Assembly: GCA_025174535.1 (NCBI GenBank)
Contig: JALBUN010000001.1
Coordinates: 1,798,001-1,862,000, forward strand
Direction: 5' to 3'
Source: Cantharellus purpuraceus
Lineage: Eukaryota > Basidiomycota > Agaricomycetes > Cantharellales > Hydnaceae
Length of the DNA: 64,000 nucleotides
The position numbers were made by a program, and so were the translations under genes. The notes under the pieces are model-generated. The model saw nothing but the letters and a program-made list of their open reading frames with translations. It had not been told where the DNA came from and ran no database searches. Below, in pieces: positions 30,513-36,357 of this stretch (the first letter of the stretch is position 1; each line of letters begins with the position of its first letter).

Positions 30513-31121
30513 CTACCAGTCTGCAGGGGCAGGCTCTGGCTCGCGCTTCCAATCCGCCCTCTTCCAGTCGGCAGGCGCAGGCTCTGGCTCGCGCTTCCAG
30601 TCCGCTCTCTTCCAGTCGGCAGGCGCAGGCTCTGGCTCGCGCTTCCAATCCGCCCTCTTCCAGTCGGCAGGCGCAGGCTCTGGCTCGCGCTTCCAGTCCG
30701 CTCTCTTCCAGTCGGCAGGCGCAGGCTCTGGCTCGCGCTTCCAGTCCGCTCTCTTCCAGTCGGCAGGCGCAGGCTCTGGCTCGCGCTTCCAGTCCGCCCT
30801 CTTCCAGTCGGCAGGCGCAGGCTCTGGCTCGCGCTTCCAGTCCGCCCTCTTCCAGTCGGCAGGCGCAGGCTCTGGCTCCGGCTCGCGCTTCCAGTCCGCC
30901 CTCTTCCAGTCGGCAGGCGCAGGCTCTGGCTCTGGCTCGCGCTTCCAGTCCGCCCTCTTCCAGTCAGCAGGCGCAGGCTCACGCTTCCAGTCTGCTCTCT
31001 TCCAGTCGGCAGGCGTACGAGCCAATAGTCCCACATCTCCTGGGGCTGGGACCGGCATCGCGGCGGCCATCAACGAGGACACGAACACAGTGCTGGCGAG
31101 GAGGTTTAGGTGCATATGCAT
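30513..31121 (-). CDS. secreted Kex2-processed repeat peptide precursor 1
   Basis: Intronless 202-aa precursor; no homologue recognised. Residues 1-22 form a signal peptide (hydrophobic LLASTVFVSSLMAAA). From residue 36 the protein is pure repeat: the tripeptide Ala-Asp-Trp occurs 21 times, every copy but the last followed by Lys-Arg. Short ADWKR units alternate with longer ones whose spacers are EPAP (one), EPEPEPAP (two) and EPEPAP (seven), giving 16-residue units encoded by 48-bp DNA repeats. Lys-Arg is the Kex2 site of the secretory pathway. The start is the first of two close ATGs; an in-frame upstream extension lacks a signal peptide. The product could be a secreted signalling peptide or a modified (RiPP) peptide; the function is unknown. 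Confidence 0.85.
   Translation of the reverse strand: MHMHLNLLASTVFVSSLMAAAMPVPAPGDVGLLARTPADWKRADWKREPAPADWKRADWKREPEPEPAPADWKRADWKREPEPEPAPADWKRADWKREPEPAPADWKRADWKREPEPAPADWKRADWKREPEPAPADWKRADWKREPEPAPADWKRADWKREPEPAPADWKRADWKREPEPAPADWKRADWKREPEPAPADW
30530..31010. repeat. 48-bp coding tandem repeats
   Basis: The coding strand carries about ten 48-60 bp units, almost identical at the DNA level; two units are 60 bp because of an extra Glu-Pro pair on each side of the norm, and the first is shorter. Since the unit length is a multiple of three, the array is open in several frames on both strands, which creates large spurious ORFs. Confidence 0.95.
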
Positions 31122-31266
31122 GGTGGTAGTATATAGAATAGAGTAAAGAGTCAAGGATGGATGTTGATAATGATAGGTTATAATGAATGTGCTGCACCGT
31201 GTGGGCAGGTACACGTAGTATGGGTTGATTCGAGCTTCCTGATGTTGACGTGACGTATAGGCGTGG

Positions 31267-31274
31267 TTTTTATA
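31267..31274 (-). promoter_or_regulatory. candidate TATA box of precursor 1
   Basis: TATAAAAA on the minus strand, about 146 bases upstream of the start codon at 31121. A TATA-type promoter would suit a highly or conditionally expressed secreted peptide gene. Motif evidence only. Confidence 0.4.
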
Positions 31275-31728
31275 CGTCTGCCCAGTGTGGGTGGACCTTA
31301 TTGCTGTCCTGTTTGAGAGGCAACATTTAGGTCATACAATAAGCGAGAGGATCAGGCACGACGGCGCCTGCAATTGTATATTGGTCTACAGGCACGGGCT
31401 GGGACGGTGACTGATTGCGTAGCAAAACAAAAAAAGACGCCCAAACAGGACAATTGAACGCTGTCTCTCTCTCTAATAGTCTCGACTCCTAAATGCAGAA
31501 GACATATGACGCAGATTCTTTAATGCTTTACGCGCGCCAGATGTGTGAGAGGACACGGGACTTTGTAAGAAGCTACGCATTGGATGCGAAGATTTCAGTG
31601 GCGCTACGTCCAGGCCCACGGCCATTAATAGCTGGATACGCCACCGCATCGCCTTCATAGACGCCAGGTAATCACACTGGTGATGGAATGAGACTGCAGA
31701 TCAAGAGACTCAAGGTCATCTCTGATTG

Positions 31729-32000
31729 CCTAAATTGTTTCGGACTGGTACACAAGAATACTGGACAAAGTGTCATGATCTGCCAATAAAACTTGATAGA
31801 ACAAGACGGATAAAGACGAAGGGGCGACGGCGGAGGAAGGGGATGATACGGGAGGAAGGGAAGGCCTAAATTGTTTCGGACTGGTACACAAGAATACTGG
31901 ACAAAGTGTCATGATCTGCCAATAAAACTTGATAGAACAAGACGGATGAAGACGAAGGGGCGACGGCGGAGGAAGGGGATGATACGGGAGGAAGGGAAGA
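31729..32000. repeat. 136-bp perfect tandem duplication
   Basis: Two adjacent copies, 31729-31864 and 31865-32000, differ at only one or two bases. They lie just downstream of the stop of the second repeat-peptide gene, probably in or next to its 3' untranslated region. The near identity means a recent duplication, or an assembly artefact. Confidence 0.93.
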
Positions 32001-32103
32001 CCATTGATTGTGACGTGGTCAAGCAAAAAAGATATGAAGATGGGATACGGGGAAAAGGTAAGGAGTGTGAACCCGACGTTGAAAACGATCGGTTTTATAC
32101 AGA

Positions 32104-32720
32104 TCACTTCCAGTCGGCACGCTTCCATTCAGCGGGCTGGGCAGAGTGTCAACATTGGTATGGAAGGAATAAAACAAGAGACGTACTTGACGCTTCCAGT
32201 CGGCGGGCTCTGGCTCACGCTTCCATTCAGCAGGCTCTGGCTCACGTCTCCAGTCGGCGGGCTCTGGCTCGCGCTTCCAGTCAGCAGGCTCCGGTTCACG
32301 TTTCCATTCGACAGGCTCTGGCTCGCGTTTCCAGTCTGCACGTTTCCAATCGGCGGGCTCTGGCTCACGTCTCCAATCTGCGCGCTTCCAGTCCGCAGGC
32401 TAGGGGACTGGATAAGCAGGACAGACTCTGCAGAGAAGCGGGAAGACATGCCTCGGGTTCACGCCTCCAGTCAGCGGGTGCAGGCTCACGACGCCATTCC
32501 GCACGCTTCCAATCGGCAGGCTGGAAAGAGATATTGATGACACAAAATGGATCAAGGTGATCAGCATACCTCAGGGCTGCGCTTCCAGTCGGCACGAGCA
32601 TCAAGCTCGGGGATCTGGCAGAATGCATTAGGTACGAGATGGAGAGAGGAGGAGAGTGCGTACAGGGACGGCAGCGACGAGGAGAGAGAACAAGAGGATA
32701 GAGAACCACTTGAGAGACAT
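32104..32720 (-). CDS. secreted Kex2-processed repeat peptide precursor 2
   Basis: Paralogue of precursor 1, same strand, about 1 kb upstream of it. Exons on the minus strand: 32664-32720, 32570-32614, 32452-32520, 32187-32399, 32104-32136 (138 aa). Exon 1 is exactly a signal peptide (WFSILLFSLLVAAVP). The rest holds 15 core tripeptides, 11 ADW, 3 AEW and 1 VEW, each followed by Lys-Arg or Arg-Arg except the last, which ends ADWK. Spacers are mostly EPEP or EPAP. All introns are phase 0, and three interrupt the repeats at the same point, just before Pro-Ala. The intron at 32400-32451 requires a GC donor (GCATGT). Repeats are more diverged than in precursor 1. Confidence 0.82.
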
Positions 32721-32931
32721 TGGGAGGATGGTTAGAGAAGAGGAAGGAAAGAAAGCATCTCTTTTTGTATCAGCCGACATGGGAAGAGAGCATGTGTCTG
32801 CAAAATCCCACAGTAAGGAACCAGGGGCAAGGCCCAGGTGGATCAATCTAATTCCGACCCTGGCCGAGGACATCCCGGATTCTCGGCCCCGCTATCCCAA
32901 GTCACGTGGTTCTCCGGCATCTTACGCCCTC

Positions 32932-35112: not shown

Positions 35113-36357
35113 CAACTTCACTCTGCGCGTTAGGGATCACCCACATCCTTGCGACAACTCGCGCACCTTTTGGTGAACCCGGCACGTTGGCGGATCTTTG
35201 CGATGGTTTGCGGCTATCGATCAGCGACGCAAGAGATATGCATATCTCGATAGATGCCATTTCTAGACCATTTGTCCCCACTGTTGGGGTTGATAGCCAA
35301 ATACAGCATATCTACATGTTTACGATGTCAATTTGCTCCAGCATATGGCTTGCGGCGTGCCGTGTGCCACGATTCAGCTTTTGCCACGAACTTCCGCAAA
35401 GTAAACGCCAACTCTATACAGGCCACCCTACGGGCACGTCAATTGCGCCTTGGCTGTTCTGGGCTGTCTGGGTGCCACGCACGCCAAGGGCGGGACGGCG
35501 TAAGGAACATCTTCAAAAAGGACAGCTGTCTTGCTGCCTTCCGTAAGATATGTGGTAACCTGAACCGATTCATGAGATGTGACGGGGCTGATGGAGGTGA
35601 TGCCGTTCAGGTGATTACTGGCCGGATATAATTGGAAATCATGCTAAAGAGACACGGTGGAATGGTAATAGCTCTGCCGGTAGAGGATCAAAGTCCACGT
35701 TGGTAGAGGATCGAATGGCACATTAGTAGAGGATCGAGGTCCAAGCATTGGTAAAGGATCGAATGGCACATTGGTAGAGGATCAAAATCCACATTGATTG
35801 GCACGATTTAAGATCGGGAAAAACCATCTAATAATTATCTGAAGATGTAGATTGATAGGAGAGTCAGGTCATTCAAACAAAAGAAAGAGAACAAGTTTGG
35901 ATGTCCACGATCGTTCCAGCATGTTGCGTGACCTTGGTCTCGTGCACAAGTAAATGTTTATACTCCTGATCAACTATGCGCAATGGCGACACATGAGGCT
36001 GCTGACCATTGAGCGAAAGCTTATTAGACTATAGCCGTATTTTTGGACATGTTCAAATTAGGTACGAGTCTGGCGTTCTCAAGCTGGGGTGGTTGGCATG
36101 AGGGAAGAGACCGAATCTCCAAGGATCTCCGTTCCTCTTATGACTTGCGGAGAGTATGTGTGAATTATCATTGCGCACCTGCCGGCTTCCACAATAGGTA
36201 TGAACAAACACGAATAAGCATGGAGTAAAAAAAGAAACACTCACTGATTATTACCAACCTCTATGCAGACGGACGATGTCAGGATCTAATGACCGACACA
36301 TCCCAGCCGACTGCTCTAAAATTGCTCTACATAGATACGCACATGGAAGCGCAATAT
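35113..36357. other. intergenic, 1.2 kb
   Basis: No gene supported. Short reading frames on the plus strand near 35109-35631 have no recognisable domain. A minisatellite (35679-35800) is listed separately. Confidence 0.5.
35679..35800. repeat. 23-24 bp minisatellite, five units
   Basis: Five head-to-tail units starting with GGTAGAGGATC (one starts GGTAAAGGATC), alternating between variants ending in AAAGTCCACGTT-like and GAATGGCACATT-like sequence, so the pattern is partly a 47-bp dimer. Confidence 0.85.

Follow-up and report, generated by a model that had tools for sequence, protein, structure and literature searches.

The locus studied here raises the question of what is made by two neighbouring minus-strand genes whose predicted products repeat the core Ala-Asp-Trp (ADW). 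Both genes lie in a window of 64,000 nucleotides (the whole stretch of DNA that was analysed) on contig C1 of the Cantharellus purpuraceus genome. An earlier note on this DNA had described secreted Kex2-type repeat precursors (KEPs) encoded by two adjacent genes about 1 kb apart, and this is borne out by sequence and homology. Positions and strand were confirmed, the gap between the genes is 982 bp (31122..32103), and a recount gave the same numbers of cores, 21 in gene 1 and 15 in gene 2. The description of each product as a signal peptide followed only by ADW/AEW-Lys-Arg units holds for the cores but not for the word 'only', as most units also carry X-Pro spacers (EP, AP, SP or QP), the feature by which the family is best recognised. 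The reading favoured here, with moderate confidence, is that gene 1 and gene 2 are paralogous, alpha-factor-like agaricomycete KEPs of the STE13-signature type that would yield mainly ADW, likely an extracellular signal. The coordinates are collected in Table 1.

Table 1. Positions in the window of the two precursor genes and associated elements.
Feature	Position	Strand	Basis
Gene 1 CDS, KEP precursor, 202 aa, single exon	30513..31121	-	translation and unit count
Gene 1 signal peptide, approximately residues 1-20, predicted	31062..31121	-	hydrophobic core VFVSSLMAAAM
Gene 1 leader single Arg (LLAR), ahead of first TP-ADW	31017..31019	-	sequence
Gene 1 repeat region, ADW cores with EP/AP spacers, final ADW-stop	30516..31010	-	repeat finding, translation
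TATAAA motif, 153 nt upstream of gene 1 ATG, candidate element	31269..31274	-	motif scan
Gene 2 CDS, KEP precursor, 138 aa, five exons	32104..32720	-	spliced translation
Gene 2 exon 1, signal peptide MSLKWFSILLFSLLVAAVP, predicted	32664..32720	-	hydrophobic core mean 3.06
Gene 2 intron 1, 49 nt	32615..32663	-	spliced translation
Gene 2 exon 2, leader IPELDAR and first ADWKR	32570..32614	-	spliced translation
Gene 2 intron 2, 49 nt	32521..32569	-	spliced translation
Gene 2 exon 3	32452..32520	-	spliced translation
Gene 2 intron 3, 52 nt, GC-AG	32400..32451	-	spliced translation
Gene 2 exon 4, nine units	32187..32399	-	spliced translation
Gene 2 intron 4, 50 nt	32137..32186	-	spliced translation
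Gene 2 exon 5, PAEWKRADWK-stop	32104..32136	-	spliced translation
Divergent intergenic region, 211 bp, gene 2 versus MYB-type gene starting at about 32932 (+)	32721..32931	.	sequence

Gene 1 runs without introns from an ATG at 31121 to a stop at 30513-30515, and gene 2 from an ATG at 32720 to a stop ending at 32104. The N-terminal stretch of gene 1, MHMHLNLLASTVFVSSLMAAAM, contains the hydrophobic core VFVSSLMAAAM (Kyte-Doolittle mean 2.05). When the gene 1 translation was cut at each dibasic site, every one of the 21 cores was ADW; the 15 cores of gene 2, taken as [AV][DE]W, comprise 11 ADW, three AEW and one VEW. The units are near-identical and are split by KR or RR, where a KEP has at least three such repeats split by KR, RR or KK. 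Cutting at dibasic sites gives 36 fragments, each with W at its end except the last of gene 2, which finishes with WK. The residues between a dibasic site and the following core number 0, 2, 4, 6 or 8, such that each of 34 units carries whole X-P pairs or nothing, with no odd case. In gene 1 there are 10 units with no spacer, one with EPAP, seven with EPEPAP and two with EPEPEPAP, and in gene 2 four with none, seven with EPEP and one each with SPEP, EPAP and QP. X-P or X-A pairs right behind a KEX2 site are a known STE13 signature, as described in parts of two papers (PMC6339444, PMC9769878), and 20 of the 34 units display it, the other 14 being spacerless.

From this organisation a processing route can be proposed. 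If the genes are expressed, the precursor chain would reach the ER via its signal peptide, and kexin (KEX2) would cleave behind each Lys-Arg or Arg-Arg and probably also behind the single leader Arg (LLAR in gene 1, LDAR in gene 2). The Arg of LLAR is a possible monobasic KEX2 site by analogy, monobasic cleavage having been reported in related KEPs in the consulted part of PMC9769878. A KEX1-type carboxypeptidase would then strip the basic residues to leave a C-terminal Trp, and a STE13/DPPIV-type dipeptidyl peptidase would strip the EP, AP, SP and QP pairs and halt at Ala-Asp. The major secreted product would thus be the tripeptide ADW, with AEW and VEW as minor products; their calculated [M+H]+ values are 391.161, 405.177 and 433.208, respectively. 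Since 14 of the 34 units are spacerless, KEX2 and KEX1 alone would release a tripeptide from these, and since gene 1 ends in ADW-stop and gene 2 in ADWK-stop, the terminus of each chain is already, or nearly, a mature C-terminus. The paired register of the spacers fits dipeptidyl trimming without proving it, because slippage by six bases also preserves whole pairs.

The enzymes that this route calls for were sought in the genome, where all counts of family matches are lower bounds. At least one P_proprotein match was found, with an adjacent frame matching kexin in the PDB at 2.3e-52, and at least one DPPIV_N gene was seen as three adjacent rows, its best PDB match being DPP4 (6.4e-11). The pair of kexin and STE13-type peptidase expected alongside agaricomycete KEPs is therefore present. 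S10 carboxypeptidases gave at least 24 rows, none of which was assigned as KEX1, and there is at least one clear PTR2 oligopeptide transporter gene plus one row under the cut-off. Two of the S10 rows, at C34:502148-503653 and C45:3510650-3512155, have identical scores, and another pattern match common to both places lies nearby; either a large segment has been duplicated, or the assembly contains it twice, near the end of C45.

A first alternative keeps the same class of precursor but has the active product retain its spacer (EPEPAPADW, EPEPADW), with no dipeptidyl trimming and with the bare tripeptides as by-products. Although 20 of the 34 units do carry spacers, and the DPPIV gene could have other tasks, we consider this rather unlikely: 14 units are spacerless, spacer length ranges over 2-8 residues whereas the core is constant, and Pleurotus peptides ending in -AADW were detected without XA/XP pairs, apparently through STE13 trimming, in the account that part of PMC9769878 gives.

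The trimmed tripeptide can be compared with the products of related precursors. Protein searches, each scoring the approximately 8,000 candidates with most words in common, returned four proteins at E<=0.1 with gene 1 and seven at E<=1 with gene 2. With a nine-row alignment as query the number rose to 24 at E<=10, of which 19 scored below 2e-3, and this establishes the homology to basidiomycete KEPs. Ten of the 24 are from named genera, mushrooms without exception (Ramaria, Leucocoprinus, Collybiopsis, Dendrothele, Lentinula, Sanghuangporus, Termitomyces, Amanita, Jaapia and Lyophyllum); three of these belong to the Gomphales, Jaapiales and Hymenochaetales, all Agaricomycetes, and the other seven we take to be Agaricomycetes as well. 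At least one fragment ends in ADW in 11 of the 24 homologues and in DW in 19, a share inflated by the words used in the search. The closest named homologue, Ramaria rubella K439DRAFT_1610884 (record P0002; E 2.0e-18 to gene 2), resembles the Cantharellus genes in its ADW cores, EP/SP spacers and leader ending in AAR; it differs in having one AQW and one ADS unit and in a record that apparently contains translated introns.

When the homologues were trimmed in silico, ADW was the main core in four of the 24: P0001 (11 of 11 cores), P0002 (3 of 6), P0005 (5 of 5) and P0008 (2 of 3). Other trimmed cores were LTNADW and ALNADW in P0003, FDNNADW in P0007 and IQADW in P0024; those of Sanghuangporus end in KDW, some PGW or PDW triplets occur in Termitomyces, Lyophyllum and Amanita, and the Leucocoprinus core is DW after trimming or QADW if QA is left untouched. 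As the trimmed cores are mostly longer, or DW, in 20 of the 24, the tripeptide is not the rule of the family; rather, the differences among homologues show that the N-terminal part is variable and the D-W or x-W end common. Gene 1 and gene 2 retain little beyond this common end.

The earlier note could match the core to no described fungal peptide, which does not stand, as peptides ending in -AADW are known from shiitake and oyster mushrooms. Among the peptides found by mass spectrometry in Vogt et al. 2022 (PMC9769878) were SGTGEASAADW from Lentinula edodes, three from Pleurotus ostreatus (MSGVAADW, SGVAADW and LSGVAADW) and the first two of these three from P. eryngii. The authors comment that the -AADW end is common to them and that the Pleurotus precursors carry STE13 XA/XP motifs. 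The earlier interpretation was thus right in kind and overlooked a known KEP family. Compared by published description, P. ostreatus KEP 1091723 and P. eryngii KEP 1439342 likewise have repeated cores, dibasic KEX2 sites and STE13 pairs, and their products share their end with the gene 1 and gene 2 cores; their trimmed cores have 7-8 residues, whereas the last three residues alone are predicted for gene 1 and gene 2, 14 of whose 34 units are spacerless. L. edodes KEP 2599, found in fruiting bodies, also has a repeated core with the -AADW end but, unlike gene 1 and gene 2, an eleven-residue core in seven repeats, according to the same portion of PMC9769878. STE13-type KEPs are recorded in Basidiomycota, with repeat motifs of at least three residues, by Le Marquer 2019 (PMC6339444), and Umemura 2020 lists, in the section drawn on here, 76 KEPs homologous to six basidiomycete alpha-pheromone-like precursors (PMC7329392). 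Searches of the open-licence PMC literature turned up no description of ADW as a stand-alone product.

Ascomycete alpha-factor precursors likewise combine a signal peptide, predicted in gene 1 and gene 2, with dibasic sites, STE13 pairs and repeated cores, as outlined in PMC9769878 in part. No Pfam family matched either Cantharellus precursor at E<=1, so the MF_alpha domain of ascomycete alpha-factor is missing from both, and they differ from it also in their three-residue core. Mating in basidiomycetes relies on a different kind of pheromone, prenylated and a-type according to PMC9769878, although alpha-factor-like precursors occur in basidiomycetes too. No match to a STE2-type receptor was found in the genome, but the search gave none in any control genome either.

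The system is therefore of a type already known, and what is new is its reduced form, in which whole X-P spacers, or none, precede a core of three residues. This suggests that ADW may be the smallest part that is recognised in a family of peptides spread across mushrooms. A plausible role for ADW would be that of a small extracellular signal read via its C-terminal end, made likely by its being the C-terminus of longer -ADW peptides in other mushrooms. The developmental version of this reading is weakened because knockouts of six Coprinopsis KEP genes gave no phenotype in axenic growth (PMC9769878); that study found no function. More speculatively, and doubtful on present evidence, free ADW could be a hormone of mushroom-forming fungi, with C-terminal ADW as the recognition element throughout the class and the N-terminal extensions varying. 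If so, it would be an unusually short fungal signal to be encoded by a gene, perceived by a receptor or imported by an oligopeptide transporter, for which the PTR2-type gene of this genome would be a candidate. A precursor cut down to ADW, among relatives with longer -ADW peptides, also offers a cheap and specific test, as the tripeptide can be synthesised as a possible minimal ligand.

The same processing could instead deliver a peptide aimed at other organisms, such as competitors or plant and animal partners, rather than at the fungus itself. A role in the biotic environment was favoured by Vogt et al. after the six knockouts, and virulence and mutualism factors are among the characterised KEP peptides, in the passages of PMC9769878 used here. 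Against this, the window contains no pointer to a partner, and the synthetic peptides tested by Vogt et al. were without antibacterial activity, those passages leaving unstated whether an -ADW peptide was included (PMC9769878). We regard such a target as unlikely.

Cross-linking or cyclisation of the ADW cores by UstYa-family enzymes, as in ustiloxin-type (dikaritin) RiPPs, had been raised in the earlier note and proves a weak option. Dikaritin precursors have the signal peptide and KEX2-cut repeats that are predicted here (PMC9769878); at least 11 UstYa (DUF3328) matches over the cut-off occur in the genome, and 17 of the 76 related KEPs (22%) lie near DUF3328 genes in the section of PMC7329392 noted above. 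However, all 11 matches lie on contigs other than C1 (3.87 Mb), whereas a dikaritin precursor gene has a UstYa gene close by, which makes a cyclised RiPP unlikely; in addition, unlike dikaritin precursors, both precursors are without Tyr, and also without Cys, and a three-residue core offers little for cyclisation. Taken together, this makes a ustiloxin-type product very improbable. No modification enzyme was recognised among the 10 window frames scanned, which matched Kinesin, Ribosomal_L13e, a cytochrome reductase transmembrane region and Myb; four of the 10 had no Pfam match, and one RING match was under the cut-off. The UstYa matches elsewhere form small groups on C9, C18, C23 and C30, with three within approximately 7 kb on C30, and these groups are candidate RiPP loci.

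The coding status of the repeats was assessed by their variation. The gene 1 array is a tandem repeat with a 48-base unit (Tandem Repeats Finder score 773), in which an open frame is weak evidence because other frames are likewise open. Better evidence is that variation is dominated by the third codon position and that pS exceeds pN. Summed heterozygosity among units at codon positions 1, 2 and 3 was 0.50, 0.00 and 1.44 in gene 1 and 0.13, 0.54 and 2.27 in gene 2, with pS 0.596 against pN 0.042 (190 pairs) and pS 0.692 against pN 0.100 (91 pairs), respectively; unit pairs within a gene are non-independent, so these figures are descriptive and not tests. Units were chosen by the [AV][DE]W pattern, and cutting at every dibasic site lost none (21/21 and 15/15). 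That the genes encode a Rep1-like protein with a structural or surface-active function, or are low-complexity repeats that drift and yield no peptide, is accordingly highly improbable: slippage does enlarge tandem repeats and other frames are open too, but pS is far above pN, other mushroom genera have similar units behind hydrophobic leaders, and Rep1 peptides have 37 residues and no STE13 signature in the pertinent part of PMC6339444.

In the 40.15 Mb genome, a codon pattern for ADWKRADWKREP gave 11 sites, 10 in gene 1 and one in gene 2, and its reversed control none, which speaks against chance. When the gene 2 protein was used as query for further ADW precursors, 14 rows came back, eight in gene 1 and gene 2 and six weak (E 0.005-8; three on C5 and one each on C34, C45 and C49), and a search with homologue P0003 gave two rows, both within gene 2. 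On C5, two of the three rows (L016 and L018) look like unrelated tandem repeats rather than further ADW precursors. By eye, both are short in-frame tandem repeats, and L018 adjoins a gag-like retroelement frame with a zinc knuckle. A spaced W-K-R pattern had 54 sites, as did its reversed control; 24 sites fall in gene 1 and gene 2, with the remaining 30 dispersed, so that information lies in the clustering and not in the total. A less strict pattern, with at least 577 sites against at least 266 in the control, was not relied on.

A local duplication, as the earlier note proposed, is likely from the position of the genes and their common core, but not from their flanks (600 nt upstream, up to 600 nt downstream), which resemble each other at the level of shuffles. 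A recent duplication was rejected on this ground; the duplication is therefore old, or the repeats have evolved together. The leaders match better, with one of 1000 shuffles as good, mainly through hydrophobic composition.

The intron calls in gene 2 were based on consensus ends, reading frame and homology. The four introns measure 49-52 nt and are all in phase 0, the exons measure 33-213 nt, and the model is supported because removal of the introns leaves an uninterrupted series of units. Introns 2-4 each fall within the X|P pair of a unit. Intron duplication was considered and rejected, as most intron pairs match no better than shuffled sequence, with a weak resemblance in pairs 1-3 and 1-4 (18/300 and 13/300 shuffles as good). 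Gene 2 is thus an example of a KEP precursor split by tiny introns, and surveys using automatic gene models may for this reason miss or garble KEP genes. This is apparently the case for P0001 and P0002, in whose records the clean ADW units are separated by what seem to be translated introns, which points to short-intron KEP genes that were mis-annotated. Indeed, by eye, P0001 is apparently translated through the counterpart of gene 2 intron 4 and on into a 3' region that resembles that of gene 2.

Gene 2 and a neighbour that matches Pfam Myb_DNA-binding diverge from each other across 211 bp and may share regulation. Directly 3' of gene 2, a 136-bp unit is present in two tandem copies that are 99% identical (31728-31999). 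Other short tandem repeats in the window lie at 221-482 (71 bp) and 35679-35796 (23/48 bp).
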